A stretch of DNA of 64,000 nt from Pectinatus cerevisiiphilus (GTDB lineage: Bacteria > Bacillota > Negativicutes > Selenomonadales > Selenomonadaceae): NCBI RefSeq assembly GCF_004341685.1, contig NZ_SMAA01000015.1:1-64000 (forward strand), given 5' to 3'. Position numbers and translations under genes: made by a program. Below, one piece after another: positions 4,448 through 26,616 of this stretch. How positions within the stretch are numbered: position 1 is the first letter of the stretch; every line of letters begins with the position of its first letter. The notes beneath the pieces were generated by a model, which was given only the letters and a program-made list of their open reading frames with translations, had not been told where the DNA came from and did not search any database.

Positions 4448-4481
4448 ATTAATTTCTCCTTTAAAAATTATTGTTATCCCA

Positions 4482-7294: not shown

Positions 7295-7319
7295 GTCAAT
7301 CCTTCCTTTATTGCTAAAA

Positions 7320-8678: not shown

Positions 8679-8714
8679 ATTTAGACCTCTCTATCTTTCA
8701 AATCATTTTTTTAT

Positions 8715-10217
8715 TTATCGTGCCAGAATATATGCGTCCTTCTGTTTTAGCCACCAATCTGTATAGGGCAATTTCACATGGGTTTTAATACTGTTATGGA
8801 ATTTTTTACGGGCTAGGATATCCAATATGGTTTCTCCCAAATTAATTATTCCCTGATAACCAATGGCTATATGTTCATCACCTAAAGGGGCTGCCGGAAT
8901 ACCGAGCCTTGAAGCGAGTGGAGCCAGACCGTTATGCCTGATGAGCATAAAATCTGGATGTACTTTTTGCGAAAAGGCATACAGTTGGTATTGCTGCCGA
9001 TTGCTGACATGGAAGTTTTCTACATTACCATAGTTTTTTAATAAATGGCCGAGTGAATCTTCTCTATCATCACCGCTGTCGTAGACTGGATCATGATGAA
9101 AGACCAGAGAGCCGTTCACTTCGACATTCAGTTCCCGCAAAACCTGTATCAAACCATGTGAATATGCGGAGCCAGTGGCTACATAGCCTTTTACGCCTCT
9201 TAATTTTTCTTTTAATTTTTTGATGCGTGGACGAACCCTGGAATGCTCGCTGGCAATGTATTTTTCCGCCAATTCTTCCCGATGTGTTACACGGGCCAGT
9301 TCTCGCAGCCATGCATCTGTGCCAGAAAAACCGTACGGCATAGGTGCCTTAACTTCGGGGACACCAAAGTGTTGTTCTAGCGCGGTGGCTAAATAAGATG
9401 ACAAAGTGTAGCAAAAACCAACTGTTGCTGCCGCTTCAGACATTCTCGCCAAATCATCGACGGAAGCCAAATCTATAACATAATTTACTTTGAGATTTAG
9501 ATTTGCAAGCATCGGTGTAAATACATCCGAGCCCCATAAATTGATTACATTGACAAGGTCTTCCTGTTTGTGTGGGTTTTTACGGACTATTTGTCTTAAA
9601 ATGCCATGCTGCGTAGCATCAAAACCTGTACTCCAGTGTTTTGACCTAAAACCTTCGCAGGCCATGGGGATTACCGGTACGCCCAGCTCTTCCTGCTTTT
9701 CCCTGGCAATGCTTTCAATATCTTCGCCAATGATACCTGTTGCGCAGGAGGTGGCAATAAATATAGCTTTGGGCTTATAACGTAGCCAAGCGGCATCAAT
9801 AGCACTGCGCAGTTTATCTGACGCACCAAAAACCATGTCTTCTTCCGTTAGGTTTGTATTGATTATGCGGATATTTTCTACCTTATGTCCCCGCATCGAA
9901 AGTCCATTGCGATAAATAGAATTATATGGAACCTGTCCAGCACCGCAGCCTATTGGCGAGTGCTGTATTAAAACCGCATCCCGTACATTACCGGCTTGGC
10001 ATTCAACCATTTGTTCACTACACACCGACCCTTGTGAAAAAGGCCCTTGCAATTCACATAACCGGCAGCCATCACCGCTGCCGCAGCCTGCTGCCCTGCC
10101 TGAAAAATTGGACTGTCGGTGTAGTTCCTTTATATCACCATCCCAGGCGATAATAGTGCCTAAACGCTGTTCGCGTGGCTGTACCTCCGAAATATCTAAA
10201 TTGATCTTTTTTTGCAT
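8715..10217 (-). CDS. Nitrogenase-like component 1 alpha subunit, pair 2 (NifD-like)
   Basis: A 500-residue NifD-like subunit. C91 (SPIGC) and C158 (TSCATGIIGED) correspond to P-cluster positions, C269 (GFCYTLSSYL) to the active-site cofactor cysteine, and H449 (GDEHIAIGYQG) to the histidine seen in pair 1. It has the richest N-terminal cysteine group of the three paralogues (C45, C51, C54, C66, C73), enough for an additional cluster if these fold together. The ATG has GGAG seven bases upstream. It follows the cysteine synthase-like gene by about 48 bases. Divergence from pairs 1 and 3 around the cofactor pocket suggests a different substrate range; that is inference. Confidence 0.88.
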   Translation of the reverse strand: MQKKINLDISEVQPREQRLGTIIAWDGDIKELHRQSNFSGRAAGCGSGDGCRLCELQGPFSQGSVCSEQMVECQAGNVRDAVLIQHSPIGCGAGQVPYNSIYRNGLSMRGHKVENIRIINTNLTEEDMVFGASDKLRSAIDAAWLRYKPKAIFIATSCATGIIGEDIESIAREKQEELGVPVIPMACEGFRSKHWSTGFDATQHGILRQIVRKNPHKQEDLVNVINLWGSDVFTPMLANLNLKVNYVIDLASVDDLARMSEAAATVGFCYTLSSYLATALEQHFGVPEVKAPMPYGFSGTDAWLRELARVTHREELAEKYIASEHSRVRPRIKKLKEKLRGVKGYVATGSAYSHGLIQVLRELNVEVNGSLVFHHDPVYDSGDDREDSLGHLLKNYGNVENFHVSNRQQYQLYAFSQKVHPDFMLIRHNGLAPLASRLGIPAAPLGDEHIAIGYQGIINLGETILDILARKKFHNSIKTHVKLPYTDWWLKQKDAYILAR

Positions 10218-10265
10218 TTGCTAGCTCCTTTGCACTTAAGCATCCTCAAATATTGAATAATATCT

Positions 10266-11177
10266 TTATCCATATATTTTTTTACTAAAATAACGGTCAC
10301 CGCGGTCAGGGAAAATAACCACTATATTTCCGCTGGTTATCTCTTTAGACAGTTTCACGGCAGCAGATAACGCTGCCCCTGACGATGTTCCCACGAATAA
10401 ACCTTCATGCTTAGCCAGCAACCGCACTGCTTCCAGCGCTTCTTGGTCAGACACTTTTATCACTTTATCAACAAGATCCATATCCATTGTGGCAGGAATA
10501 AAATCATTGCCGATACCTTCAATATCGTAATCCTTATGTTCGCCACCACCTAAAGTTGATCCCAAAGGGTCAGCCAGTACCCCTTTTAGTCCGGGAATCT
10601 TTTCTTTTAGATAACGGGTGGTACCGCTATAGGTGCCACCACTGCCCGCACCAGCGATAAAGAAATCTATTTGGGCATCCAAGTCTTGATAAATCTCCGG
10701 CCCGGTCGTTTGGTAATGGGCTAATACGTTATCGGGATTGTCAAACTGATTAAACGAGACTGCATTGGGGATTCCCGCTTTTATTTCCTGTGCTTTTTTA
10801 GCCGCGCCGAGCATCCCGTCCTCGCGTGCCGTATTTATTATTTGTGCTCCAAGTGCTTTCATCAGGCATTGTTTTTCTAAAGAAAATTTGTCTGGTACAA
10901 CAAATATGACTTTATAGCCTTTATTTATTGCCGCTAAGGCTATGCCAATCCCCGTATTTCCTGCGGTGGCTTCCACAATAGTGGCACCTGGTTTAATATC
11001 CCCTCTTTTTTCCATTGCTTCTAAGATAAATACACCAATACGGTCTTTGACGCTGCCTCCTGGATTCCAGAATTCCAGTTTAGCGAAAATATTTATTTTC
11101 TCCGGTATTCCCAAATTATTTAGTTTAAGGAGTGGAGTTTTGCCAATTAATGAATGTATACCTTTATAGTATTTCAT
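10266..11177 (-). CDS. Cysteine synthase / O-acetylserine-dependent cystathionine beta-synthase (CysK/MccA-like)
   Basis: A 303-residue fold-type II PLP enzyme. K44 in GGSVKDR binds PLP; EATAGNTGIG and GAGSGGT are the substrate and phosphate-binding loops. EGIGNDFIP near the C-terminal third is typical of the cystathionine beta-synthase/MccA branch, and the gene directly follows a cystathionine gamma-lyase-like gene. This reproduces the mccA-mccB reverse transsulfuration pair known from Bacillus subtilis, which turns homocysteine into cysteine. O-acetylserine sulfhydrylase activity is the alternative. The start has GGAGG six bases upstream, inside the end of the previous gene, so the two are translationally coupled. 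Its place between nitrogenase-like genes ties the reductases to cysteine supply. Confidence 0.87.
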   Translation of the reverse strand: MKYYKGIHSLIGKTPLLKLNNLGIPEKINIFAKLEFWNPGGSVKDRIGVFILEAMEKRGDIKPGATIVEATAGNTGIGIALAAINKGYKVIFVVPDKFSLEKQCLMKALGAQIINTAREDGMLGAAKKAQEIKAGIPNAVSFNQFDNPDNVLAHYQTTGPEIYQDLDAQIDFFIAGAGSGGTYSGTTRYLKEKIPGLKGVLADPLGSTLGGGEHKDYDIEGIGNDFIPATMDMDLVDKVIKVSDQEALEAVRLLAKHEGLFVGTSSGAALSAAVKLSKEITSGNIVVIFPDRGDRYFSKKIYG

Positions 11178-11178
11178 A

Positions 11179-12342
11179 TCAGCCCTCCGCCTTTTTAGCT
11201 GCCTGCGTTATATCAACCAGCAAGTCTTCATAGTCCTCGATGCCCACAGACAAGCGAAGTAAACTGTCGGTAATGCCGATACGCTTTCGGACGTCAGGTG
11301 GGATTGAAGCATGTGTCATTGAAGCCGGTTGGCAGATTAATGATTCCACTCCGCCGAGACTTTCAGCCAAGGTAATTATTTTAAGATTATTTATAAAAAG
11401 CTTATAATCATATTTTTTCTGTAATTCAAAGGAAAGCATTCCTCCAGCACCATCTGCCTGTCTGGTTTGTATTTCGTAACCGGGATGGTCAGGCAGCCCC
11501 GGATAATAGACGTGTTTTACCCAATCTTGTGCTTTTAGCCATTCTGCTATCTTGGCAGCATTTTTCTGATGGCGTTCCATTCGCACACCTAAGGTTTTTA
11601 TTCCTCTTATCAGTAAAAAGGAATCGATCGGTGCCAAAACACCACCAGTAGAATTTTGGATAAAATACAGTTTTTGGGCTAATTCGTCATCATTTGCTAT
11701 TACTACTCCGGCAATAAGGTCGCTATGCCCTCCTAGGTATTTTGTAGCACTATGCAGCACTATGTCTGCACCTAAGGTAAGCGGACGCTGTAAATAAGGG
11801 GACATAAAGGTATTGTCCACTATTGTCAATACCTTATGTCTTTTTGCCGTTTCAGCTACGGCTGCTATATCAGTTACTTCCAATAAAGGATTAGTCGGTG
11901 TTTCTACTAGAATAGCTTTAACTTCTTTGGTCAGATTTTTTTCTATTTCTTTAATGTTTCCTGTATCCACGAATTGATACGTAATGCCAAAATTTATAAA
12001 AATTTTATCTAAGATACGAAAGGTTCCACCGTAGACATTTTTGGAAATCAAAATTTTATCGCCAGTGGAAAATAAGGTAAACACAGCTGCTATAGCTGCC
12101 ATACCGGATGCAAAAGCCAAACCATATCGACCATGTTCCAATTCCGCCACAAGTTTTTCCAGTGCTTCACGGGTTGGGTTACCTGTACGGGAATATTCAT
12201 AGCCAGTATTTTTGCCAAGGCGTATTTGTTTATAGGTCGATGTTTGGTAAATAGGTACACTTACTGCGCCTGTGGTTTTATCTCCATCTATGCCACCATG
12301 TATTAAAATAGTATTTAAGTTATGCATTCGTCCTTTTGCCAT
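11179..12342 (-). CDS. Cystathionine gamma-lyase/synthase family PLP enzyme (MccB/MetB-like)
   Basis: A 387-residue transsulfuration enzyme. K201 in HSATKYLGGHSD is the PLP lysine; YSRTGNPTREALE and the SGMAA loop are family signatures. In operon with the MccA-like gene it is most likely a cystathionine/homocysteine gamma-lyase acting in reverse transsulfuration. Cystathionine gamma-synthase cannot be excluded by sequence. The ATG at 12342 is 11 bases from GAAGGGA. A second ATG five codons downstream has AAAGGA only three bases away, so the exact start is not certain. The stop is one base from the next start. Confidence 0.87.
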   Translation of the reverse strand: MAKGRMHNLNTILIHGGIDGDKTTGAVSVPIYQTSTYKQIRLGKNTGYEYSRTGNPTREALEKLVAELEHGRYGLAFASGMAAIAAVFTLFSTGDKILISKNVYGGTFRILDKIFINFGITYQFVDTGNIKEIEKNLTKEVKAILVETPTNPLLEVTDIAAVAETAKRHKVLTIVDNTFMSPYLQRPLTLGADIVLHSATKYLGGHSDLIAGVVIANDDELAQKLYFIQNSTGGVLAPIDSFLLIRGIKTLGVRMERHQKNAAKIAEWLKAQDWVKHVYYPGLPDHPGYEIQTRQADGAGGMLSFELQKKYDYKLFINNLKIITLAESLGGVESLICQPASMTHASIPPDVRKRIGITDSLLRLSVGIEDYEDLLVDITQAAKKAEG

Positions 12343-12397
12343 ATAGGTTCAAGTCCCTTCGTTATTATTTATTATGTTTGTTTATATAAGGCAGTGT

Positions 12398-13414
12398 TTA
12401 TTCATCCTTAACATCATCAAAAAATTTGAAACTATTTTTTTGTAATGCATTTATATCAACACTTTTATCGAGCATGCCGATATCTTGTAATTCTTTCGCC
12501 ACGGTAGTAAATGAATCATAAGCTTTCTGCACTGATGGTATATACTTGAAGGTTTTCAGTATCTTTGCATTCTTTTCAGCATCACCAGCAACGTATTTAT
12601 TATCTACCTGTAGTTTTGCTGTTTCATCAGGATGTGCTTGTATCCAACGGCTGGCCTTCATCATTGCCCGAGTATATTGCGCGGCTGCTTCTGGATGTTC
12701 GGCAAGCAATTTATTGCTCACATAAGCTACGCAGCAGTATTGATCCTTATAAGGAGCATCCATTGCTGAATCAGCCAGTATATTTAAACCATATTTGTCG
12801 GCAGCGATGCTGGCAACAGGATCATTGTCTGCAATTGCATCAATGGCTCCTTTTTCTAAGGCAAGTGGTAATTCGCTGTCACTAAATACGACAAATTCAA
12901 CTTCCATATTTTTTTCAGTTACACCTATGCCATGTGCAGCCAATACGCGTTTAGCAAATATTATCGGGCTGCTGTTAAGGCTAGGTACGCCGATCCTTTT
13001 TCCTTTGAGATCTTCAATGCTTTTAATTTTTCCATTATTTGGAACCAGAACCTTGTCGCAGCCAGTATGCAGGCCTACTGTAAGCTTGACGGGCAGCCCG
13101 TTTGACAATGGTTGGATCAAGTTTGCCATCAAATTGAAACCGGCATCCGTCTGTCCTGAACTTATACTTTCAAAAGCCGTGCCAGGAGCAAGTTTTATAG
13201 GATCTACCTTTAGCCCTTCTTCAGCAAAAAAGCCTTTTTCGATAGCCATATGTAGGGGTGCTTCGCAAAGTGACCCGCTATAACCGACTTTTAGGACAAA
13301 GTTATCATCATTAGTATTATTTTCTGCCGCCGTGTCTTTGCTCTGTTGGCCGCAGCCTGTTATTGTGAGTAGCAGGACAATTAAGGCAGTAGAAAGCAAT
13401 AATATTTTTTTCAT
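12398..13414 (-). CDS. ABC transporter substrate-binding lipoprotein (SsuA/TauA/NMT1 type), module 1
   Basis: A 338-residue lipoprotein. A hydrophobic signal ends in the lipobox LTITGC, followed by a low-complexity linker and a periplasmic-binding fold (VGYSGSLCEAPLHMAIEKGFF and FFAEEGLKV are typical of nitrate/sulfonate/taurine binders). The start MKKILLL at 13414 is chosen because AGGA lies eight bases upstream and it gives a normal signal peptide. It follows its ATPase and permease genes. The binding pocket is unusually cysteine-bearing for this family (C in GSLCEAP, HTGCDK and QYCCVAY). The substrate is unknown; context suggests an organosulfur compound. Confidence 0.87.
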   Translation of the reverse strand: MKKILLLSTALIVLLLTITGCGQQSKDTAAENNTNDDNFVLKVGYSGSLCEAPLHMAIEKGFFAEEGLKVDPIKLAPGTAFESISSGQTDAGFNLMANLIQPLSNGLPVKLTVGLHTGCDKVLVPNNGKIKSIEDLKGKRIGVPSLNSSPIIFAKRVLAAHGIGVTEKNMEVEFVVFSDSELPLALEKGAIDAIADNDPVASIAADKYGLNILADSAMDAPYKDQYCCVAYVSNKLLAEHPEAAAQYTRAMMKASRWIQAHPDETAKLQVDNKYVAGDAEKNAKILKTFKYIPSVQKAYDSFTTVAKELQDIGMLDKSVDINALQKNSFKFFDDVKDE

Positions 13415-13453
13415 TGTCATTTTCCTTTCATTCCCCAATTTATTGTATGGAAA

Positions 13454-14233
13454 TTATATAAAGTAACCAGGGTCTTCAGTTTTTCCGGCATAATCTAGGA
13501 TTTTTAATATTTGGGTGCGTAAATAAAGAAACTCAGAACTACTGCGGACTCGGGGATAAGAAAGATTTACATCAAGTATTTTTTCTACTTTGGCCGGGCG
13601 CGGCGTCATTACCACTATCCTGCTGGAAAGATACACTGCTTCATCTACATCATGGGTGACCAGTATCATTGTCATTTTTTCTTTTTTCCAAAGATGGATA
13701 AGTTCGTCCTGCAAATTCATACGTGTAAAAGCATCAAGCGCACCTAGCGGTTCATCAAGCAGCAATACTTTGGGATCATTTATCAATACCCGGGCCAGAC
13801 CTGCTCTTTGTATCATCCCACCAGATAATTGATGGGGATAAGATTTTTCAAATCCTGCCAAAGATACCATATTAATAAATTTACTTACTCTTTCTTTATG
13901 TTTGCGATAAACATTTCTGGCTTTAAGGCCAAAAGCAATATTGTCGTATATATTGAGCCAGGGAAATAACATCGCGTTTTGGAATACCAAGCCTCGTTCA
14001 TAGGAGGTGCCTTCAATTCCGGCTCCATCCATAGAAAGCGTTCCTTTAGTAGGTGTGCTTAAACCGGCAATGAGGCGCAGCAAAGTTGATTTGCCGCAAC
14101 CGGACGGTCCTATTAAAGAAATAAATTCACCGGCTTTTATATTTAAATCGACACCATCCAAGGCAGTTATTTCATTGCCATCGTCTGTTGTGAATTTTTT
14201 TATTACTGAGTTTATATCTATAGCGCCTACCAT
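13454..14233 (-). CDS. ABC transporter ATPase (SsuB/TauB type), module 1
   Basis: A 259-residue nucleotide-binding subunit with Walker A GPSGCGKST, Walker B VLLLDEPLGALD, and H-loop LVTHDVDEA. The signature motif is LSGGMIQRAG, with isoleucine where most relatives have lysine or arginine before QR. It energises uptake through the permease encoded directly upstream, whose stop codon it overlaps by seven bases. It belongs to module 1 (permease, ATPase, binding protein), sitting between pair-3 nitrogenase-like genes and the transsulfuration genes. Confidence 0.92.
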   Translation of the reverse strand: MVGAIDINSVIKKFTTDDGNEITALDGVDLNIKAGEFISLIGPSGCGKSTLLRLIAGLSTPTKGTLSMDGAGIEGTSYERGLVFQNAMLFPWLNIYDNIAFGLKARNVYRKHKERVSKFINMVSLAGFEKSYPHQLSGGMIQRAGLARVLINDPKVLLLDEPLGALDAFTRMNLQDELIHLWKKEKMTMILVTHDVDEAVYLSSRIVVMTPRPAKVEKILDVNLSYPRVRSSSEFLYLRTQILKILDYAGKTEDPGYFI

Positions 14234-15174
14234 TTTATGACCCCTTTTTGCCAGACCAGAATACGGTCGCGTACTTTGAACAACAGCATTACCAATAGAT
14301 AAAAACTAACCGCTATAATAATGAGGCCTGCGTATACATTGGCATAAGCCATCATGTCCTTTTGCCAATTTATGTACCAGCCGATACCATTTTTTACGCC
14401 CAACAGTTCAGCTGTCATAAGTGTTACAAAAGAAATTCCGGCGCCGTTAAATATTCCTAGAAACATTTGCGGCATAGCCGCAGGAATGCCTACTTTTAAA
14501 ATTTGATAATACCGTCCTGCCCCTAAGGTACTGGCAACTTCAAAATAGGCGTTGGGAATATTTTGGATGCCGCCAGCTGTCATTATAGTTGTAGGAAACC
14601 ACACAGATAATGCGATTAGAAAAACACTGCCTGCAAAAGTTGTTGGAAACACTACGAGCACTATTGGAATCCATGCAGTCGGCGGCATGGGGCCGATCGC
14701 TCGTACCAGCGGGTTGATCCAATAAGAAATTACTTTATTAAAACCGACAGCAATTCCCGTTATTACACCGGCAATAACACCGATAGCAAATCCGGCAAAA
14801 AGCAGCTTTGCTGAAGAGAAGACACAAGTAGCCAGAAAAGCACTGTCTTCCACAATGACGGAAAATACTCTGTCTATCGATGGGAAAAATATGACCGGCA
14901 GTAAAGCATATTTTTTAGAAACTAAATTAAATATATTCAATAAAAGAATTAATACTGCATAAAACGGTGCCTGTTTAGCAAAATTTTTATCTTTAGTTTT
15001 TCTTAGATTATCGCGAATAATATTTATGATAAATATTATTCCTAAAATCAGAAGGAACCATAAAAAATATTTTGTTTTTGTAGGTGTATGCAAAGGTGAA
15101 TCAGGCAGCCAAAGATCTACTCCTACAGCTAAAAGTACAGAGAGCAACGGCAGCCACGATTTTAATCTTTTCAT
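14227..15174 (-). CDS. ABC transporter permease (SsuC/TauC type) with extra N-terminal membrane segments, module 1
   Basis: A 315-residue permease, about 50-60 residues longer than the SsuC/TauC norm. The extra N-terminal part carries two or three hydrophobic segments (near 8-23, 35-54 and 70-85) separated by a basic loop (NLRKTKDKN). The core then follows the family pattern, with the ATPase-coupling loop near EVASTLGAGRYYQILKVGIP. Module 1 permease and ATPase overlap, indicating coupled translation. It follows the pair-3 K gene by 85 bases. The role of the N-terminal extension is unknown. Confidence 0.88.
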   Translation of the reverse strand: MKRLKSWLPLLSVLLAVGVDLWLPDSPLHTPTKTKYFLWFLLILGIIFIINIIRDNLRKTKDKNFAKQAPFYAVLILLLNIFNLVSKKYALLPVIFFPSIDRVFSVIVEDSAFLATCVFSSAKLLFAGFAIGVIAGVITGIAVGFNKVISYWINPLVRAIGPMPPTAWIPIVLVVFPTTFAGSVFLIALSVWFPTTIMTAGGIQNIPNAYFEVASTLGAGRYYQILKVGIPAAMPQMFLGIFNGAGISFVTLMTAELLGVKNGIGWYINWQKDMMAYANVYAGLIIIAVSFYLLVMLLFKVRDRILVWQKGVIKW

Positions 15175-15259
15175 AATAAATTTATTCCCCCAAAACAGTT
15201 TAGTAGCCGAGCAAAAAAATTATATCTGCATTATTTGTATATAAATTAAACATTATTCA

Positions 15260-16609
15260 TTAAAAAATTGATCTTGAGGTAGCAGTTTTGCGTTTAAATA
15301 CCGCAGAATATATTTCACTCATAAGATGTAAACCGCCATTATATCCTGTATAGGTATCATTTAAAATCACTGTTTCATCAAGTGGTAAGCTGAGATATGC
15401 ATAAAGACTGCCAATATCAAGTGCAAGAAATTTTTCCCAGGAGCTGCCGAGAATAATTGAACGTTTTGCTTTATCAGCGCTTTGGCGTATATCAGCTTCG
15501 ATGCGTCCTCCGTCATTTTCGAAAGTTAAAGCAGTTACCAATTTACGGTCACGTGCTGATAATGACTCGGTAATAATCTGCTGCCATTCCGGTTTTAATT
15601 CATCGGTCAAATAAATTTTCTTAGGCGTAAGTCCCAATTCATCGACAAGAAAAGCACTTATTCCCGGAGCATAGATACTGTCCCCCACAGTATAGAAATC
15701 AACCGGTAAATTGTTCCAATACTCACCTATAAAATCTGATACAGATATGAAGTAATCATAAAAACGTTTTTCTTCTTCTTTGATAAATCTTTCAGTTCTT
15801 ATGGGTGAGAGTCCGGCAAATACGGAAACATCGCGTAAGAATTGGCTGGTTTCCTTAGCACCAACTGGCAATAAGGGATATTGTAGATATGGTGTATCGT
15901 ATTTTTCTTGTAAAAGTTTGACAATATCAATTCCAGTCGACGGCGAAATCAATAAGTTAAACTGTGCATTGGGAATGTTTGCCCATTCACTAATTCCTGC
16001 TGAACCGTTGCCAAATAGAATATTTACTTCAAGCCCTATTCCTGTTAAAACACGCTTGATTTCTTCCAAATCACCGCGCCAAAAGGGATCTTGGAACGGT
16101 ACTACTGCGAACACATTTACTAAGCCGCGCTGGACCTTTGGTTCCACACTACCTATAAATTGTTCAATAATGGATTTTATAACTATTTCATGTCCATAGT
16201 AACTACTGCCTTTAAATCCAGCAGTTTCCGTTCCTACTACTGGATATCCTTGGGCGGCAAAGCGTTCAGCTACAGCTATTGAATCATCACCGACGATGTC
16301 GGAGGTGCAGCCGGATAACACGACGAATAAATCGCCGTCGAGAATTTGTAAAGCCCCTTTTATTTCTTTTGCCAGGCTTGTTTCACCGCCGAAAATAACT
16401 TCTGATTCTCCGGTATTGGTGGAGGAAATATGGGAACCACCACCATATCCTTCACCTTGGAAACCGGCGCCGGTAGCGGCAAAAGCAAAGGATTTGGAGG
16501 CGCATCCCGGCCCTGCATGTACGATTGGCAAAGCACGTGGAATTGCCAATACGGTCTGTTGTGCGCTTAAAGCACAGCCATAACGTGGTTGTTCGATTAT
16601 GTCACTCAT
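15260..16609 (-). CDS. Nitrogenase-like component 1 beta subunit, pair 3 (NifK-like)
   Basis: A 449-residue NifK-like protein with P-cluster-type cysteines C12 (RYGCALSAQ), C36 (HAGPGC) and C101 (LSGCTSDIVGDD). The start ATG overlaps the D partner's stop (ATGA), which couples their translation. Unlike pairs 1 and 2, pair 3 is separated from the other pairs by an ABC module and the mcc-like genes, and it follows the four-permease transporter module. It should form a D2K2 component 1 with the pair-3 D subunit. Function as for the other K subunits: electron relay through the P-cluster and shaping the shared interface. Confidence 0.87.
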   Translation of the reverse strand: MSDIIEQPRYGCALSAQQTVLAIPRALPIVHAGPGCASKSFAFAATGAGFQGEGYGGGSHISSTNTGESEVIFGGETSLAKEIKGALQILDGDLFVVLSGCTSDIVGDDSIAVAERFAAQGYPVVGTETAGFKGSSYYGHEIVIKSIIEQFIGSVEPKVQRGLVNVFAVVPFQDPFWRGDLEEIKRVLTGIGLEVNILFGNGSAGISEWANIPNAQFNLLISPSTGIDIVKLLQEKYDTPYLQYPLLPVGAKETSQFLRDVSVFAGLSPIRTERFIKEEEKRFYDYFISVSDFIGEYWNNLPVDFYTVGDSIYAPGISAFLVDELGLTPKKIYLTDELKPEWQQIITESLSARDRKLVTALTFENDGGRIEADIRQSADKAKRSIILGSSWEKFLALDIGSLYAYLSLPLDETVILNDTYTGYNGGLHLMSEIYSAVFKRKTATSRSIF

Positions 16610-18078
16610 AGCCCACCATCCTGTGTATTATTAAAATTAACAATACTATTTTGCTGCCACCATTTGCTGTATGGTAATTTGGCGTGCAAGGCAATATTGT
16701 TGAACAAATTTTTAGCAGCTAATAGTTCTATTAATCGCCGCCCAAATTTTAAAACACCATCATAACCAATACTGTAATTTCCATCGCCTTCACTTAAAGT
16801 GGGAATTCCCAGTTTCATCCCGAAGGGCGCTAAATTGGGATGGCGTACTATTAATACGTCCGGTTTTATGTCTTGCAATAACTTAAGGATACGATATGGC
16901 TGCTTATTGCATACCGTGACATTTTTTATATTTCCATTACTTTTAATTAATGCATCCAGTGTATTTACCTGTTGCGGTGTTTCAAAATGTAAGTCATGGT
17001 GCAGTGTGCTTAAACCAATTACCTTCAAATTTAGGTCTTTAGCAATATTGGCTAGATTATGGGCAAAAGCATCTCCCGACAATACATAAACTGTTTTTCC
17101 CGCCAACTGTGTCCTGAGCTTTTCTAATTCTGGCTGTATTCGTTCATGTTCTTGGGCGATTACTTGTTCTGCCAAATCCAACCGATCGGTGTATTTAGCT
17201 ATTTCCCTTAACCAGCCGTCAGTCCAGTTAATACCAAATGGTGGTGGTACTTTTACTTCGGGGACGCCATATTGTTCTTCCAATGCCGCAGCTACGTATG
17301 TAGCCAGCGTTTCACAAATATGCGCTGTGCAGGCAGCTTCCGTAAGAGAAGCAATTTGCTCCAAGGTGGCCATTGGCACTAAATAATTTACACGTAAACC
17401 AAGCTTATGCAAAAAAGGGATAAATGTGTCTGAACCGGCAAAGTTAAATATGTTTACCAGATCATGTTGTTTTTTCTGCGCTGGTTTTACCAGCCTGCGT
17501 AAAACTGCGTGGAAGGCAGCATCAAAACCTGTGGACCATATGTTTGATTTAAAACCTTCGCAATATACCGGAACAACTGGATAATGCAATTTTTCTTCTG
17601 CCTGCCGAGCAATGCTTTCCATGTCTTCACCAATGATACCTGAGGCACAGGAAGCCTGGAGGAAAATGGTCTTAGGTTTAAAGCGGCGGTCAGCTTCATA
17701 TATTGCTGCAAATAATTTTTTAGAAGCACCATAGACAGTGTCTTCTTCATTTATGTTGCTGCTGATCATCTGTACCTTATGTTCAGGTAGACCACGATTT
17801 TTAGATACTGCCCGGCTTAAAATATGGCGTGGTGACACGCCGATACTGCAACCAATTGGCGCATGGCTAACCACTGCTGCCCCGATGACATGGTAGGTTA
17901 TTGTTTCCGCGCATCCTTCAGCGCATTGGCTGCACTGATTGTAAGAACTGCCAGGGCATTTAACTTTTCTCTTTTTAGATTGGATATTAAGAGTTTCTGC
18001 ATCACCCTGATAGGAAAGAATCGCGTTTAGTCTTCTCTCCCTGATTTCAACTTCAGGCATATCTTTGTAAACTGCCAT
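16606..18078 (-). CDS. Nitrogenase-like component 1 alpha subunit, pair 3 (NifD-like, divergent pocket)
   Basis: A 490-residue NifD-like subunit with an N-terminal cysteine group (C41, C49, C52, C56), P-cluster-type C77 (APIGC) and C144 (ASCASGIIGED), and cofactor-type C255 (HICETLATYV). At the place where pairs 1 and 2 have GDEH, this paralogue reads GDGN, so the histidine is replaced by N434. The flanking GYDG turn is kept. This may mean a different cofactor ligand, a different substrate, or a role as a scaffold in the manner of NifE. It is the first of the three D genes transcribed after the transporter module. The ATG has GGGAG ten bases upstream. Confidence 0.87.
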   Translation of the reverse strand: MAVYKDMPEVEIRERRLNAILSYQGDAETLNIQSKKRKVKCPGSSYNQCSQCAEGCAETITYHVIGAAVVSHAPIGCSIGVSPRHILSRAVSKNRGLPEHKVQMISSNINEEDTVYGASKKLFAAIYEADRRFKPKTIFLQASCASGIIGEDMESIARQAEEKLHYPVVPVYCEGFKSNIWSTGFDAAFHAVLRRLVKPAQKKQHDLVNIFNFAGSDTFIPFLHKLGLRVNYLVPMATLEQIASLTEAACTAHICETLATYVAAALEEQYGVPEVKVPPPFGINWTDGWLREIAKYTDRLDLAEQVIAQEHERIQPELEKLRTQLAGKTVYVLSGDAFAHNLANIAKDLNLKVIGLSTLHHDLHFETPQQVNTLDALIKSNGNIKNVTVCNKQPYRILKLLQDIKPDVLIVRHPNLAPFGMKLGIPTLSEGDGNYSIGYDGVLKFGRRLIELLAAKNLFNNIALHAKLPYSKWWQQNSIVNFNNTQDGGL

Positions 18079-18103
18079 ACACTAATCACTCCCATCAGCA
18101 ACA

Positions 18104-18880
18104 CTAATTAATAATTTCCGGGTATTGATGTGACAATAGCTTCGCTTCAATTGATTTCAAAATAAAATCGATGAAGACGGCTAAAACGGCAATTGTCACT
18201 GCCCCAGCATAAATCCGGTCGATATTATAATTTTCCTGGTTGGATAAAACAAACCAGCCAAGACCTGAGTTAGAACCCATCATTTCTATAACTATCAGTA
18301 AGAAAAACGCATAACCTGCGCTGATACGCAGTCCTGTAAATAGTGACGGCATAACCATCGGTATAGTGATCTTAGAAAACAGCTGCCAACGGCTTAGGCC
18401 AAATGAAGCACCAACTTTAAGTATGTCAGTATTAGCATTTTTGATGCCATCACAAATACTGAAAAGTATAGGCCAAAGGCATACCCAGCTTAAAATGATA
18501 GTTTTTGCAAATTCACCTATCCCTGCAAATAAGATAACCACATGAAATAAAATAAATGGGTTAGCCTGTTCTGCTACTTTGAGCAGCGGCCAGATAGACA
18601 TTTGCAATCCACGCGGCCATACAGATAACCAAAATCCTAATGGTACTGCGATAAGCACACCCACTACAAAACCTAGTACAGCTCTTTGCAGGCTGATTAG
18701 AACACTTGCCGAAAAACTACCATTAATGAGTAGCTGCCATATAGTTTCTAAAACACTTGAAAAGGGTGGCAAGAATAAATTATTAACCAAACCACTTCTA
18801 CTCAATATTTCCCAAACTACTATAAAAAGTAATATAAAAACCTTATTCTCGAAAAATTTTTGCACATGTTCTATTTGCAT
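18104..18880 (-). CDS. ABC transporter permease (SsuC/TauC type), module 2, copy 4
   Basis: A 258-residue permease with about six membrane segments. The start MQIEHV at 18880 has AGGTGA about five bases upstream; earlier in-frame starts lack a site. The N-terminal pattern (LLFIVVWEILSRSGLVNNLFLPP) matches the other three permeases of this module (LFLLLWE...LPP), so the four look like products of local duplication. It is the last permease before the pair-3 nitrogenase-like genes, 25 bases away. It probably shares the module's only ATPase and binding protein. Confidence 0.87.
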   Translation of the reverse strand: MQIEHVQKFFENKVFILLFIVVWEILSRSGLVNNLFLPPFSSVLETIWQLLINGSFSASVLISLQRAVLGFVVGVLIAVPLGFWLSVWPRGLQMSIWPLLKVAEQANPFILFHVVILFAGIGEFAKTIILSWVCLWPILFSICDGIKNANTDILKVGASFGLSRWQLFSKITIPMVMPSLFTGLRISAGYAFFLLIVIEMMGSNSGLGWFVLSNQENYNIDRIYAGAVTIAVLAVFIDFILKSIEAKLLSHQYPEIIN

Positions 18881-18965
18881 GGTGCTCACCTGTAAATTCA
18901 TCAATTTTCATATATTTGTCCATTATTAGCGAAAGTGATATTTTTAGGTGACAGCAGATGCTATT

Positions 18966-20261
18966 TTATGGCCATGTACCACCGCTCGGATGTAACATAA
19001 CACTATACGTATCATCATCGTCATCTTGTCCCATATCCATATGCTGGTTAGTATCACTATTTTGTTCGTTTTGATCTTGATCATGTTTGTCCATATCCAT
19101 ATGTTGGTTCATATTGCTACTTTGTTCGTTTTGATCTTGGTCATGCTTATCCATATCCATATGTTGGTTCATATCGCTATTTTGTTCATCTTGATTTTGA
19201 TCATGTTTATCCATATCCATATGCTGGTTCATATCACTATTTTGTTCATCATGATCTTTATCATGCATATGCATATCCATATTCATATGCTGTTCCATGC
19301 CATTATCTGTACCAGAACTATGTGAGCTCTGTCCCATCTTTGGCATTGGTTGTAAAGTCTGTTGCTGCACTAGCTGACTACCAAAGACAATAACACTACA
19401 TGCACCACCTACTATCAATGGTATCCAATATCTATGCCAGCTTACTCTGCCTGTTGATGTTTCGTGCAGACCCTGTTTTGTCTCTTTGACCGGTTCATAC
19501 CAAAAACGTATTTCCCTTTCAATCTCTGCAAAAATTTGTATCAACACAATACCCAATAAAATAATTAGTACACCGCCGGCATATAAACGCGGAATATCAA
19601 ATTCCATTGCACTGCCGTGCACCATTGCACCAAGTCCTGTGCGGGCATTGAGCATTTCTACGCCGGTCAGCATGAATACTGATAATTGGGTACTTATTCT
19701 CACACCAGTCATAATTGTCGGAAAAGCTGCAGGTATTAATACCTTTATAAACATGGCTGCAAAAGTCACCTTCATTGAACGGGCGGTTTTTATAATCGCC
19801 GGATTAATATAACGTACACCGGTAATTGTATAAAAAAGGACAGGCCAAAAGGCAACAATTGCAATTATGGCCAGTTTCTGTTTTTCTCCTATGCCGAATA
19901 ACAGTAAGAATAAGGGTGACAGTGAAAAAGGATTCACATGGCTTAGTAATCTGAATAATGAGTCCATTTGTCTTACCAAATGAGGGAACCAGCCCTGTAG
20001 TAATACACCAAGCAGTATACCGGCGATTATAGCCAGTGATAAGCTGCATGTTATTCTCCATAAACTGATAAGGAGGTTATTGACTAGTTCACCGCTCATT
20101 AGTAAATGTGCCATTTCATTCAGTATTATTGATATTGGCGGTAAAAATTGCGTGTCAACTAAATTAGCGCGGGTAGACAGTTCCCAGAGAAGTAAAAACA
20201 ATACAATGCCTGAACTTTTGATCAGCAGCTGTTTTAATTTGCTTTCAGTTTGTAACCACAC
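18966..20261 (-). CDS. ABC transporter permease with extra TM and Met/His/Asp-rich repeat tail, module 2, copy 3
   Basis: A 431-residue protein, about 170 longer than its paralogues. Residues 1-255 are an ordinary SsuC/TauC permease. An added membrane segment lies at about 277-297. Residues 322-412 then hold a tail of four 20-residue repeats (each with NQHMDMD and KHDQ) preceded by a Met/His-rich start (HMNMDMHMH) and closed by five aspartates. Such Met/His/Asp-rich tails are typical of copper- or nickel-type metal-binding segments. With one extra TM after a six-TM core the tail should face outside the membrane. The GTG start has GAGGG nearby. Metal capture by a permease fusion is inference; the architecture itself is directly visible. 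Confidence 0.85.
   Translation of the reverse strand: MWLQTESKLKQLLIKSSGIVLFLLLWELSTRANLVDTQFLPPISIILNEMAHLLMSGELVNNLLISLWRITCSLSLAIIAGILLGVLLQGWFPHLVRQMDSLFRLLSHVNPFSLSPLFLLLFGIGEKQKLAIIAIVAFWPVLFYTITGVRYINPAIIKTARSMKVTFAAMFIKVLIPAAFPTIMTGVRISTQLSVFMLTGVEMLNARTGLGAMVHGSAMEFDIPRLYAGGVLIILLGIVLIQIFAEIEREIRFWYEPVKETKQGLHETSTGRVSWHRYWIPLIVGGACSVIVFGSQLVQQQTLQPMPKMGQSSHSSGTDNGMEQHMNMDMHMHDKDHDEQNSDMNQHMDMDKHDQNQDEQNSDMNQHMDMDKHDQDQNEQSSNMNQHMDMDKHDQDQNEQNSDTNQHMDMGQDDDDDTYSVMLHPSGGTWP
19021..19280 (-). repeat. 60-bp in-frame tandem repeat in permease gene
   Basis: The block CCATATCCATATG recurs at 19031, 19091, 19151 and 19211, with a degenerate fifth copy near 19271. The period is exactly 60 bp, so each unit encodes 20 residues. 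The copies differ by a few substitutions, so the array is not a very recent expansion but could still vary in number among strains. Confidence 0.9.
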
Positions 20262-20285
20262 TATTTCCCTCGCAATCTTTGCACA

Positions 20286-21152
20286 CTATACCGCTTCATT
20301 ATGCAAATTTTCATTTGTTTGTAATTCTTCTGTTGAAATATGCTGGCCTTGTAATAACTGCCATATTTCCTGTCGCAGTTTACCAAACTCAGTTGATGCT
20401 CTGATACCGTCGCGCGGGCGGGGAAGTTCAATCTGGATTATATCTTTTATAGTTCCCGGATTGGAGGCCATTACTACTACCCTATCAGCTAAAAAGATGG
20501 CTTCATCTATACTGTGCGTGACAAAAACAATAGTCTTTTTGGTCTTTTCCCAGATTCGCAGCAGCTCTCCCTGTAAAACCTCACGCGTTTGTGCATCAAC
20601 TGCTGCGAAAGGTTCATCCATAAGCAGTACTTCAGGATCATAGGCTAATGCCCTGGCAATTGCCACACGCTGTTTCATGCCACCTGATAATTCGTGGGGA
20701 TAACGATCCTCAAAACCATTTAAATTAACTAGATCTATAAATCGTTGGCTTATTTCAGCGCGTTCCTTTTTAGGAACATTTTTTATTTCCAAGCCAAACT
20801 CTACATTTTTCCTAACGCTGCGCCACGGAAATAAAGCATATCCTTGCAAGACAATGCCACGATCCAATGCAGGGCCTGTAATCAATTTTTTATCCATATA
20901 TATTTCACCGGAGGTTGGCTGTGCCAGTCCGGCAACCATATCCAGAAAAGTTGATTTTCCACAACCGCTCGGTCCTACAATAACGAGAAATTCTTCTTTT
21001 TTTACTGTTAAATTTACATTCTTTAAAACTTGGAATTCCGTTAATTCTTCTGTATCATGTTGCCGTACCTTGTATATCCTATTTATATTGACAGCAATAA
21101 TTTTGTCATATTCACTACTTGCCGGAACGGCATCATTGGTTGAATCAGCCAT
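20286..21152 (-). CDS. ABC transporter ATPase (SsuB/TauB type), module 2
   Basis: A 288-residue nucleotide-binding subunit: Walker A GPSGCGKST, signature LSGGMKQRVAIARAL, Walker B VLLMDEPFAAVD, H-loop FVTHSIDEA. A 28-residue N-terminal extension precedes the core. It is the only ATPase for the four permeases of module 2. It begins 52 bases after the binding-protein gene and ends 24 bases before the repeat-tailed permease. Likely couples ATP hydrolysis to import of sulfonate-like or other organosulfur compounds; the substrate is not known. Confidence 0.92.
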   Translation of the reverse strand: MADSTNDAVPASSEYDKIIAVNINRIYKVRQHDTEELTEFQVLKNVNLTVKKEEFLVIVGPSGCGKSTFLDMVAGLAQPTSGEIYMDKKLITGPALDRGIVLQGYALFPWRSVRKNVEFGLEIKNVPKKERAEISQRFIDLVNLNGFEDRYPHELSGGMKQRVAIARALAYDPEVLLMDEPFAAVDAQTREVLQGELLRIWEKTKKTIVFVTHSIDEAIFLADRVVVMASNPGTIKDIIQIELPRPRDGIRASTEFGKLRQEIWQLLQGQHISTEELQTNENLHNEAV

Positions 21153-21204
21153 ACATTATCATCTCCTTGTACAATCTATCAATTACATATATCTGCAAGC
21201 TAGA

Positions 21205-22239
21205 TTACTGTGCCAGATCAAGGGCCAATAAATCTTCTGATTTGATCTTGCCTTTAGGAATTACGTTGGCATTTTCCAAATCTTTGATCCATGGGTCAAT
21301 CATGCGTGGTTTTAGATCTGTACCACCATAATAATAATGCGTTGCTGAAACCGGAACATGAATCCAATTTTCGGTTAATAATCTGGCTTCTTCTTGGTTT
21401 GCATTAGACCAGCGTTCAGCTTTAGCCATTGCTCTTGAAAATTTTTTGACTGTGTCTGGATGTTGTTTAATATAGTCTTCACTAAAATAGTAATAAGAAA
21501 CTCCAGCTTCCGGACCAAGGCCGGCATCAAAACTGTCTGCAATTTTTACCATACCGGCATCTTCCATCGATTTATAATATGGCGGATGAACGCCGGCTAC
21601 AGTGACCAACCCTTGTTTTACTGCCTGTACAGCTTGAATATCAGGCATTGTCACCCATTCAATTTTATCTCGTGCAACATTATTCCTATCGGCAATGTTG
21701 TTGGCTAGAAAATCAGCACATATATTAGTAGTTATTGTAGAAAATTTGACTTTTCCTTGAATATTATTCAAGTCCTTGAATGATTTTATACCGCTTTCCG
21801 GACTAACATACCATGCCATATGGCGCAATTTTGGGTCAAGGTCTGGAGCGGGATCTATGCCACCGACAACAACAGCTTTTATTTTTGCACCACCGTTAAT
21901 AGCTACAGCAAGGGTATTAGGATGTGTACCACCGCCGACATCGTTATCTCCATTTATTACGGAGGGAATTTGTTGCGCTGGCTGGGTATCACCTGTATAA
22001 ACCACTTTGAGGCCTTCTTCTGCAAAAAACCCTTTTTTATCAGCTACAACCCATGGCGTTGATGAACAATCTGTCTGTGACCAGGTCTTTATCGGTATTA
22101 AACCATCATTATCAGCAGCGGCTGCTTGGCCGCCCCCCTGGACTTGATCGCTGTTATTTGCCCCATAAAATACTGCCCCAACAATTACTACGCCTAGTAT
22201 GCCGGCTAAAAAATTTTTTACCCCTCTTTTCATGCGCAT
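21205..22239 (-). CDS. ABC transporter substrate-binding protein (SsuA/NMT1 type), module 2
   Basis: A 344-residue binding protein. The N-terminus (KNFLAGILGVVIVGAVFYG) is a membrane anchor or signal segment with no lipobox cysteine, unlike the module-1 and 37-kb binding proteins. The fold shows DKKGFFAEEGLKVVYTG and the HPNTLAVAINGGAKIKAV region common to NMT1/SsuA proteins. RBS AAAGGA lies eight bases before the ATG. It sits between two permease genes on either side, serving as the sole binding protein of module 2. Confidence 0.87.
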   Translation of the reverse strand: MRMKRGVKNFLAGILGVVIVGAVFYGANNSDQVQGGGQAAAADNDGLIPIKTWSQTDCSSTPWVVADKKGFFAEEGLKVVYTGDTQPAQQIPSVINGDNDVGGGTHPNTLAVAINGGAKIKAVVVGGIDPAPDLDPKLRHMAWYVSPESGIKSFKDLNNIQGKVKFSTITTNICADFLANNIADRNNVARDKIEWVTMPDIQAVQAVKQGLVTVAGVHPPYYKSMEDAGMVKIADSFDAGLGPEAGVSYYYFSEDYIKQHPDTVKKFSRAMAKAERWSNANQEEARLLTENWIHVPVSATHYYYGGTDLKPRMIDPWIKDLENANVIPKGKIKSEDLLALDLAQ

Positions 22240-22284
22240 AATCGCAATCCTTTCTACTAATTAAGTTTGTGACAGCTTTTCTGT

Positions 22285-23118
22285 CTAATATTCCGACACA
22301 TTTTCCTGCCATGAAAGGATGTGCCTTTCTATTCTGGCAAATAAATAATTCAGGGATAACCCGAGTGCGGAAATAATAAAGGTGACTGCAAATAATTTAG
22401 GTATTTGGTAATTTATCTGTGCATTCCAGACCATCCAGCCCAAACCAGTACTGGCTCCAATCATTTCAGCCGCGATCAGCATAAAGAAAGCTGTCCCGCA
22501 ACTCATTTTAAGTCCGTGAAAAACAGAGGCACTCGCTGCTGGTAAAATAACTTTAAAAAAAAGTGCCCATTTTTGCATACCCATAGAACGTGCTGATTTA
22601 ATCAATAAAGGATCTACAGTACGTATGCCGGTAATGGTATTTAATAAAATTGGCCATAAGCATACCCAAAAGATAATGGCGACCTTTGACAGCTCACCGA
22701 TTCCAAACAATAGGATAAATACAGGTAGAAGTGCAAATGGATTAGCTGCATTAAGCAATCGAACCATCGGTGTTGCTGCCCGTTGAAATATACGAAATGT
22801 GCCGCCAAGGAAAAAACCAAGCGGGACAGCTACTACACTAGCAAGAATAAAGCCGCTGATAGCGCGGAAAAGGCTGATGCCTATATTACCTAAAAGTACA
22901 CCATTGGCAAATAATTGTAAGATAGTCCCTGCCATCACCGAAGGGGCGGCGACAAAAGTATCTTTGACGATTCCCGTATCTACAAGAAATTCCCAAGTAA
23001 GCAAAAATAATACGACAGAAATATTGGGAACAATAAACTTTTTTACTTTCAAACTCCAAAAATGAGTTTTTATTGAGCGGTCTTTTTGGATAGAAATAGC
23101 CTTTACCATCGTTTGCAT
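22285..23118 (-). CDS. ABC transporter permease (SsuC/TauC type), module 2, copy 2
   Basis: A 277-residue permease. The start MQTMVKAIS at 23118 has AAGGAGG nine bases upstream; the longer reading lacks this. It has about six membrane segments and the coupling loop SARSMGMQKWALFFKVILP. It is very similar in layout to the permease encoded just upstream, including the run IAAEMIGA in both (LMLIAAEMIGAKAGLGW in copy 1 and FMLIAAEMIGASTGLGW in copy 2). This supports tandem duplication. Confidence 0.88.
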   Translation of the reverse strand: MQTMVKAISIQKDRSIKTHFWSLKVKKFIVPNISVVLFLLTWEFLVDTGIVKDTFVAAPSVMAGTILQLFANGVLLGNIGISLFRAISGFILASVVAVPLGFFLGGTFRIFQRAATPMVRLLNAANPFALLPVFILLFGIGELSKVAIIFWVCLWPILLNTITGIRTVDPLLIKSARSMGMQKWALFFKVILPAASASVFHGLKMSCGTAFFMLIAAEMIGASTGLGWMVWNAQINYQIPKLFAVTFIISALGLSLNYLFARIERHILSWQENVSEY

Positions 23119-23160
23119 AAAAAATAACCTCCTTATGCCCTTAAACATTCCCCGCTGAAT

Positions 23161-23940
23161 TTAATTAACATTTGCATCTTCCTGCCAAAATAAAATAATT
23201 TTTTCCCACCAATGAATTAGATAACTTAAAAGCATTCCCAGTAAGGCAATGATAATGCCAGCCGCAAATAAGCGCGGCATCAGGCTGTTGGCTGTCGAGT
23301 TCAGAATAATCCAACCCAAACCGGCTTTAGCGCCAATCATTTCGGCAGCAATCAGCATCAGGAACGCCTGTGTAGTTCCATGGTGAATGCCTGTAAAGAT
23401 TAATGGGGCTGTGCCGGGCAGCAATATTTCTTTAAATATCGTAAAGTGGCCGGCACCCATTGATTTTGCACTTTTTATATATAAGGGATCAATTTGGCTG
23501 ACCCCAGCTACTGTTGTAAATAATATCGGCCAAAAGGCAGCACAAAAAATAATACTAATTTTTGCTGTTTCACCAATACCAAATATCAAAATGAAGATTG
23601 GAAATAATGCAAAAGCATTGATCTGGCTGCCTATTCTCAAAAGGGGTCGTAAAAAAACGGCGACTTTTTTAAAAGTTGATAAAGCAAATCCTATTGGTAC
23701 AGCTAAAATTATGGCTAAAGCCACACCAATAAATACTCGCTGAAGGCTTGCCGCAATATGCAGCAGTAAATGTTCGACGAAAAACAATCTAACAATTGCT
23801 TCAATTACTTTTGATAAAGGTGGAATAAATTGACCATCAACAATTCCTGCACGTGGTAAAAATTCCCATAATAATAAGAAAAGAATTACCCCTGATGCAT
23901 CAATAAAGCGCTCATTAATTTTCCTAATAAATCCTTCCAT
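23161..23940 (-). CDS. ABC transporter permease (SsuC/TauC type), module 2, copy 1
   Basis: A 259-residue permease with six predicted membrane segments and coupling loop SAKSMGAGHFTIFKEILLP. The ATG has GGAG seven bases upstream. It is the first full-size gene after the NifH-like gene and the 300-base spacer, so transcription reaching it passes the hairpin at 24143-24161. A 42-codon frame with a strong ribosome site overlaps its start, which may couple or tune its translation. Confidence 0.88.
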   Translation of the reverse strand: MEGFIRKINERFIDASGVILFLLLWEFLPRAGIVDGQFIPPLSKVIEAIVRLFFVEHLLLHIAASLQRVFIGVALAIILAVPIGFALSTFKKVAVFLRPLLRIGSQINAFALFPIFILIFGIGETAKISIIFCAAFWPILFTTVAGVSQIDPLYIKSAKSMGAGHFTIFKEILLPGTAPLIFTGIHHGTTQAFLMLIAAEMIGAKAGLGWIILNSTANSLMPRLFAAGIIIALLGMLLSYLIHWWEKIILFWQEDANVN

Positions 23941-24014
23941 TCTAAATCTCCTTCACCAATCGGCAAGATGTCCATTGCTAAAGCCTGTCCTGCTCTTCTA
24001 ATAAACTCTGCCAT
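23886..24014 (-). CDS. Small ORF overlapping the first module-2 permease start
   Basis: A 42-codon frame begins MAEFIRRAGQALAMD at an ATG with GGAGGA eight bases upstream, a strong ribosome site. It ends 55 bases inside the permease gene in another frame. No family is recognised and the peptide is not hydrophobic. Its first residues (MAEFIRR) resemble the permease's own start (MEGFIRK), and the DNA around both starts is alike, so it may be the relic of a local duplication or a translational coupling leader. Coding status is uncertain. Confidence 0.35.
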   Translation of the reverse strand: MAEFIRRAGQALAMDILPIGEGDLEWKDLLGKLMSALLMHQG

Positions 24015-24142
24015 CGTCAATCTCCTCCATTCGACTGGCACATTACCCGAGTCTTCCTTTACAAGAAACACTTTTAAGTTTTAGCAAAATACGATACCAA
24101 ATTACGCTTTAAAACCTATAAAAGGGTAAAAAAATAAGACAT

Positions 24143-24161
24143 AGTAAATGCATGCATTACT
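24143..24161 (-). terminator. Hairpin downstream of Cys-rich micro-ORF, possible attenuator
   Basis: Minus-strand RNA can form a 7-bp stem AGTAATG / CATTTACT with one bulged U and a CATG loop. It is followed eight bases later by seven U residues (24134-24128). It lies 44 bases past the stop of the cysteine-rich ORF and upstream of the transporter genes. A second AT-rich hairpin with 8-bp arms (24180-24203) sits directly after that stop. The spacing to the U-tract makes it a weak terminator by eye. Confidence 0.45.
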
Positions 24162-24204
24162 TGCCTCTTTCTTTGACCATATATTAAGCAGTTATTTAAT
24201 ATAG

Positions 24205-24300
24205 TTATCCACTTGAAAGAAGTCGCAATGTCCCCATTTTTAATTTACACATATTACACATACAGTTTTTTATACAACAACTTTTTACCATGCTTTTCAT
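24205..24300 (-). CDS. Cysteine-rich 31-residue micro-ORF after nifH
   Basis: The ATG at 24300-24298 is preceded by GAGG with eight bases spacing, 25 bases past the NifH-like stop. The peptide begins MKSMVKSCCIKNCMCNMC and ends LLSSG. It has five cysteines within 11 residues (C8, C9, C13, C15, C18), all TGT codons. No family is recognised. Two readings fit: a cysteine-codon leader peptide that senses charged Cys-tRNA and controls the hairpin ahead of the transporter genes, or a small metal or Fe-S binding peptide made with the nitrogenase-like proteins. The ribosome site and position support translation; conservation is untested. Confidence 0.5.
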   Translation of the reverse strand: MKSMVKSCCIKNCMCNMCKLKMGTLRLLSSG

Positions 24301-24325
24301 TTTTTTTACCTCATATTTCATAAAC

Positions 24326-25198
<873 letters not shown>

Positions 25199-25210
25199 TT
25201 AACTTATTTA

Positions 25211-26074: not shown

Positions 26075-26108
26075 ATCTTTTCACTTCTTTCATTACCAAT
26101 AATCTGAT

Positions 26109-26477: not shown

Positions 26478-26544
26478 CAATCTTTCCTCCCTTATTTGAC
26501 AATAGTGTTTAATAAAATAAACAATGGCTTTTTGAATATAGCAC

Positions 26545-26616
26545 AAAAACAGGCCATAGATATTTAGAATACACTCAAAATATCCATGGCCTGCAGTTAT
26601 CTGCTCAGCAGTTGTG
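26545..26616 (-). ncRNA. Sulfur-leader hairpin with terminator, copy D (nif-like array leader)
   Basis: The antiterminator-like hairpin (26609-26589) has outer stem GCU/GGC, internal loop GA opposite A, inner stem GCAG/CUGC and loop AUAA. Its 3' strand begins the left arm of a 16-bp terminator stem (26593-26550, one mismatch) followed by UUUUU. The two structures exclude each other. It lies about 35 bases from the likely transcription start and 68 bases before the NifX-like ATG, so it would gate the whole array. An ACAA sequence precedes it, as in several other copies. Confidence 0.75.

Follow-up and report, generated by a model that had tools for sequence, protein, structure and literature searches.

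The nitrogenase-like array of Pectinatus cerevisiiphilus is probably governed by a cysteine-responsive, ribosome-mediated transcription attenuator, a leader ORF with a terminator hairpin placed inside the operon. Both elements lie on the minus strand of the window (the whole 64,000-nucleotide stretch of DNA that was analyzed). A cysteine attenuation leader was the reading favored by the original prediction for this site, and three independent lines of evidence speak for it: the conservation of the ORF, its cysteine codons, and the terminator; an antiterminator, not noticed in that prediction, whose formation excludes the terminator; and unrelated cysteine leaders in other lineages.

The minus-strand operon begins with a nifX-like gene (at 26546), a nifB-like radical SAM gene, and a nifH-like gene, followed by the leader and the terminator. 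Next come two permeases, an NMT1/SsuA-like binding protein, an ATPase, two further permeases, and a nifDK-like pair, and then a permease, an ATPase, a binding protein, a Cys/Met-metabolism PLP-enzyme gene, and cysK. Two further nifDK-like pairs and a similar PLP-enzyme gene close the operon. The stretch under putative control comprises two ABC transporters with an NMT1/SsuA-like binding protein, the three nifDK-like pairs, cysK, and the PLP enzymes, and its genes serve sulfur uptake and cysteine/homocysteine synthesis (Table 1). The nifD/K-like proteins score far under the cut-offs of the models for true NifD, NifE, Vnf, Anf, Bch, and Cfb, indicating that they are members of an uncharacterized nitrogenase-like group. 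Nitrogenase-like enzymes that cleave C–S bonds (methylthio-alkane reductases and their relatives) are a recent discovery.

Table 1. Positions and sequences of the leader, its RNA elements, and the surrounding genes; positions are those of the window.
Feature	Position	Strand	Sequence	Remark
nifX-like gene	26109-26546	-		operon part before the switch
nifB-like radical SAM gene	25211-26074	-		operon part before the switch
nifH-like gene	24326..25183	-		directly upstream of the leader, before the switch
Shine-Dalgarno	24309..24312	-	GAGG	spacing to ATG 8 nt, from sequence
Leader ORF	24205..24300	-	MKSMVKSCCIKNCMCNMCKLKMGTLRLLSSG, then stop	31 codons; five TGT within 11 codons as control codons
Region 2	24215..24231	-	ACATTGCGACTTCTTTC	within 3′ part of leader ORF; antiterminator 5′ arm
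Region 3	24155..24171	-	GAAAGAGGCAAGTAATG	shared: antiterminator 3′ arm and terminator 5′ arm
Region 4	24137..24148	-	TTTACTATGTCT	terminator 3′ arm
Terminator U-tract	24128..24136	-	TATTTTTTT	
ABC permease, sulfonate/taurine/nitrate type	23161..23940	-		first gene past the switch
Genes that the switch would control	3143..23940	-		~21 kb
Cys/Met-metabolism PLP-enzyme gene	11179-12342	-		within the controlled stretch
cysK	10266-11177	-		within the controlled stretch
Cys/Met-metabolism PLP-enzyme gene	3143-4552	-		by similarity only
P. haikarae leader (L047/L003)			MSGKCCFMENCICKLKTSTLRLLADRQL, then stop	orthologue of window ORF
P. frisingensis leader (L049/L004)			MLINERSCIMNCKCMYKNKYITALI, then stop	orthologue of window ORF
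P. haikarae terminator			AGGCGGGTAA..TTACCATGCCT	then U-tract
P. frisingensis terminator			AGGCAGGTA..TACCATGCCT	then U-tract

The product of one ABC permease gene of the array (18966-20261, minus strand) ends in a long C-terminal series of tandem His/Met/Asp-rich repeats (NQHMDMDKHDQ...), which looks like a metal-binding tail fused to the transporter. In P. haikarae (L047/L048), the nifD-like gene D1 is tandemly duplicated (G003:C1:343376-344839 and 344963-346420), and two copies of the gene for the binding protein follow one another.

The leader ORF starts 25 nt past the stop of the nifH-like gene. It bears out the description of a cysteine-rich, 31-codon micro-ORF with a good ribosome site (GAGG) after nifH, and all five cysteines, which fall within 11 residues, are encoded by TGT as predicted. 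This short ORF with its ribosome-binding site carries a cluster of control codons that matches the regulated genes, namely those for sulfur uptake, cysK, and the Cys/Met PLP enzymes. When the 385-nt gap was shuffled with dinucleotides preserved, an ORF with at least five cysteines in 11 residues arose in 3 of 2000 sequences (∼0.15%). A longer in-frame variant uses upstream starts, reaches at most 50 amino acids from 24357, and overlaps nifH. Between the terminator and the permease lies another small ORF (23886-24014, minus strand; MAEFIRRAGQALAMD...) with a good ribosome site, which overlaps the permease start and whose beginning resembles the permease N terminus (MEGFIRKI).

The hairpin core (AGTAATGCATGCATTTACT, 24143-24161) lies ∼44 nt beyond the stop of the leader ORF, and a U-tract is found nearby, both as originally described. 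The full terminator stem (AGGCAAGTAA/TTACTATGTCT, 24137-24166) is longer than this core, has one bulged base, and starts 38 nt past the stop; it runs from AGGCAAGTAA to the region 4 arm and directly into the U-tract. This AU-rich terminator is weak alone (-8.5 kcal/mol) and was not listed by a pattern scan. A dedicated terminator search of the array returned the leader site as the sole minus-strand intergenic terminator-like site in the stretch that starts with the nifX-like gene and ends with the final PLP-enzyme gene.

The 5′ arm of the terminator finds its complement in the final leader codons ACA UUG CGR CUU CUU (TLRLL), so that an antiterminator lying 3′ of the control codons shares this arm, and the two structures are mutually exclusive. 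The duplex of regions 2 and 3 has an energy of -16.0 kcal/mol in the window, -16.7 in P. haikarae, and -15.2 in P. frisingensis, compared with shuffle means of -7.5, -10.8, and -8.3 kcal/mol, respectively. These energies were matched by 6, 60, and 16 of 5000 shuffles, respectively (p 0.001-0.012). Shuffles folded over the whole region performed as well in 175, 38, and 27 of 1000 cases for cross pairs and in 35, 82, and 494 of 1000 for energy gain; this test is weaker than the duplex test because the spacers of P. haikarae and P. frisingensis self-fold.

In minimum-free-energy (not kinetic) folding calculations, the structure follows the position of the ribosome as attenuation requires. Masking by a ribosome at the last cysteine codon lets the antiterminator fold and abolishes the terminator in all three species, and masking at the stop codon lets the terminator fold, again in all three. 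For P. haikarae this holds for the later cysteine codons only, since a stall at the first two is predicted to form a region 1:2 hairpin and to leave the terminator in place.

The original prediction had proposed conservation as a check, and P. haikarae and P. frisingensis, both of which carry the array, indeed keep the ORF, the cysteine codons, and the terminator in the same position. The intrinsic terminator lies between the leader ORF and the regulated genes in each of the three species. The ORFs of the window and P. haikarae differ by a 9-nt indel, which is in frame. Each helix shows one double change, C-G/U-A in that of the antiterminator and G-C/A-U in that of the terminator, besides several single changes that G-U pairing tolerates; this covariation is thin, as only three Pectinatus sequences are available. 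The nifD-like protein D1 had no match in the remaining two Pectinatus genomes, so that the comparison is one of three species. Among the nearest relatives outside the genus that bear nifD-like genes (Propionispira L052/L053, a Massilibacillus MAG L068, and a Veillonellaceae L051), no cysteine leader follows nifH. A loose cysteine-codon pattern gave ∼110-160 matches in each of the five Pectinatus genomes, mostly in TG-rich sequence.

The 5′ leader of the operon holds a second, strong terminator hairpin before nifX (26550-26593, minus strand), which is kept in the three Pectinatus species (L047 8728-8771, L049 8100-8139). It is preceded by a small conserved hairpin (GCAG-AUAA-CUGC; ACAG-AUAA-CUGU in P. 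frisingensis), and no cysteine leader was found in this pre-nifX leader. It looks like a separate attenuator, the signal of which is perhaps a protein. Farther upstream (26640-26720, minus strand), the conserved palindrome-like box TGTCGTAATAACGACTTACATAAT may mark a regulator site or the promoter region.

Cysteine leaders were also found in other lineages. We surveyed 77 loci with nifD-like genes (some from the same species), together with 20 regions of the family. Of 470 gaps, 8 contained an ORF that is led by a Shine-Dalgarno sequence and has four or more cysteines within 12 residues; of these 8, two are one Selenomonas locus counted twice and two resemble ordinary small proteins; Markov shuffles gave an expectation of 0.7 and a maximum of 2 in 20 runs. 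ORFs of the type ..CIADCDxCGLCxVFHGKD.. (L109, L119, L130-L132, L135, L136, and L140) were set aside as a small-protein family, and cysteine-rich small ORFs at L064, L133, and L134 as antisense or in-gene chance occurrences.

In Clostridia (Lachnospiraceae and rumen “Ruminococcaceae”/“Clostridiales” bins), the leader has the core ATG-TGT-TGT-CGA-ATG (MCCRM), followed by CCCGGGCA and the terminator GCCCGGG...CCCGGGC-U, a layout in which regions 2, 3, and 4 form a classical triple. Downstream of this leader lie LysR-nifDKH-like operons or genes for Cys/Met PLP enzymes, NlpA-type binding proteins, or an ABC permease, and in one case an Fe-alcohol dehydrogenase gene (loci L107, L117, L119, L126, L129-L136, L138-L140, and L144-L159). 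At 20 distinct Clostridia sites, chosen by CCGGGC in region 2 and not by the terminator, the duplex between region 2 and the terminator arm reached a shuffle p of ≤0.05. The MCCRM pattern is present in 10 of 14 genomes picked for nifD-like loci versus 1 of 398 from the phylum of the window, a contrast that is indicative only, because the samples differ in taxonomy; the reversed pattern had no match. The MCCRM core and the CCCGGGC triple apparently constitute an undescribed family of cysteine attenuators that occurs once or twice in a genome.

The Selenomonas leader (MTTTAIARIYSAY..EAMCCM(C)...) is followed by a terminator and precedes an operon made up of an LCM-type methyltransferase gene, the PLP-enzyme gene, cysK, and nif-like genes. 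At L056, L058, and L062, this LCM-OAHS-cysK-nif operon has on its upstream side a second short ORF (MKCVC...ERMCR, MKCDC...ERMRT), located past the terminator and ahead of the first gene. A Clostridia bin (L124) has a leader with six cysteines (MRNIISGLNNALCRVCRAYACCCALCKSEGKLRH) and a strong terminator before a PLP enzyme-cysK-nif-like operon; a clear antiterminator was not worked out at this locus. In Treponema bins (L072, L074, and L075), the surroundings of nif-like sulfur clusters contain leaders of the pattern M(M)xNRxYCCC(CC), with the sequences MMSNRNYCCCCCR, MLNRAYCCCQGQP, and MMLNRTCCC, the best placed of which (L075) lies upstream of an NMT1-type binding protein. These three showed no clear terminator, and the Treponema leaders may act on translation. 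The leaders of the other lineages share no sequence with that of Pectinatus, which suggests independent inventions.

An attenuator built like the one proposed for Pectinatus could sense methionine, or a general slowing of translation, instead of cysteine: besides its start, the window ORF has methionines at positions 4, 14, 17, and 22, interspersed with the cysteine codons, the Clostridia leaders read (M)MCCRM, and sulfur genes would suit methionine as well as cysteine. However, the methionine positions are not conserved across the three Pectinatus ORFs, whereas the cysteine positions largely are, and tandem or clustered cysteines are the feature common to all lineages. We regard this variant as improbable.

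Five cysteines in 11 residues beside nifH and a nifB-like gene, in an ORF present in three species, would also fit a tiny Fe-S or metal carrier for the nitrogenase-like proteins, with the hairpin as a plain terminator or processing site. This alternative of the original prediction is very unlikely to hold. Its would-be ligands are not conserved, as the cysteines number five in the window (CC-x3-C-x-C-x2-C), four in P. haikarae (CC-x4-C-x-C), and three in P. frisingensis (C-x3-C-x-C). The C-terminal residues are conserved only where the RNA is: in P. frisingensis the region 2 RNA (ACAUUACCGCUUUG) is kept but translated in a different frame, indicating that selection held the RNA and not the peptide and explaining the conserved TLRLL. 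The leader peptide had no match in Pfam or NCBIfam searches, nor did seven leader peptides searched against NCBIfam, and a carrier would leave the antiterminator unexplained. An equally low probability attaches to a constitutive partial terminator that sets the ratio of NifH to the downstream products behind a chance ORF: the hairpin is internal and kept in three species, but the ORF, the cysteine codons, and the competing antiterminator are also conserved, each improbable by chance, and the same combination is found again elsewhere.

For the cysteine attenuator, we infer that the leader is translated, that ribosomes stall within it, that transcription terminates in vivo, and that the signal is cysteine. 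RNA polymerase would transcribe the nifX-like gene, the nifB-like gene, and nifH, and then the leader ORF. With plentiful Cys-tRNA, the ribosome would reach the stop codon and cover region 2, which the final ORF codons contain; region 3 would then pair with region 4, and transcription would end at the U-tract. With scarce Cys-tRNA, the ribosome would stall at the UGU codons, leaving region 2 free to capture region 3; the terminator would not form, and transcription would continue into the transporters, the nifDK-like pairs, cysK, and the Cys/Met PLP-enzyme genes. The three genes that precede the switch would be independent of it.

The chances appear evenly balanced for a wider proposal, according to which anaerobes (Pectinatus, Selenomonas, Clostridia, and perhaps Treponema) commonly control their nitrogenase-like sulfur-salvage operons by leader-peptide attenuation through cysteine, a device that would have been invented repeatedly. 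Under this proposal, its placement inside the operon in Pectinatus would leave nifH and the nifB-like gene on and restrict the production of the catalytic subunits and transporters to times of cysteine shortage. A cysteine-sensing switch on the array supports a role of these genes in sulfur scavenging, not nitrogen fixation. It also offers a simple handle, the cysteine supply, for turning the nitrogenase-like array on, and provides testable elements across several lineages.

The switch would add leader-peptide attenuation by cysteine to the Firmicutes, which are usually T-box territory. The T-box (RF00230) likewise senses tRNA charging and controls the transcription of amino-acid genes in Firmicutes, but it binds the tRNA directly and does so without an ORF. 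With 13 T-box matches per genome, Pectinatus uses this device widely, and a leader-peptide switch is therefore not the usual one there. A T-box at the switch was rejected, as no RF00230 match was obtained in 23900-26900, even at E values up to 1. Rfam searches at gathering and relaxed thresholds gave only unrelated or sub-threshold matches at the window site, and only a tRNA at six related loci. Elsewhere in the window, a weak T-box match (59313-59595, minus strand; 56 bits, under the gathering score) lies close to a c-di-AMP riboswitch (59783-59915, plus strand). Leader peptides for hisS have been reported as an exception to T-boxes in Firmicutes (PMC2965389). A literature search, with most subscription papers outside its reach, returned no cysteine attenuator in Firmicutes or on nitrogenase-like genes.

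Outside the Firmicutes, ribosome-mediated attenuation has been proposed for the uORFC-8-2 motif upstream of cysS in Rhodobacterales (PMC8632094). This motif shares with the Pectinatus switch a uORF with clustered cysteine codons, tandem ones included, and an intrinsic terminator after it; it differs in its host group (Alphaproteobacteria), its gene (cysS), its location in a 5′ leader, and its sequence. Candidate cysteine leaders were described before cys operons of mycobacteria, Propionibacterium acnes, and Bifidobacterium, and no terminator hairpins were found with them (PMC1262725). The mycobacterial leaders likewise place cysteine codons in short ORFs ahead of sulfur operons. Going by the title of Canestrari et al. 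2020 (cited in PMC13236596), the mycobacterial poly-cysteine ORFs are cysteine-responsive attenuators, similar to the Pectinatus leader in the response that is predicted for it and different from it in being leaderless.

Similar to the trp, his, and leu attenuators, the Pectinatus switch combines a short ORF with control codons, a region 2 in or near this ORF, exclusive 2:3 and 3:4 helices, and an intrinsic terminator with a U-tract. In contrast to these attenuators, its control amino acid is cysteine, its region 2 is contained in the final codons of the leader, and it is located inside the operon after three genes and not in the 5′ leader. Either reading of the leader had originally been claimed as new in this setting. 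Cysteine attenuators are known elsewhere; what appears to be new about this one, which also points to a wider set of such elements, is its setting among nitrogenase-like genes and its position within the operon.
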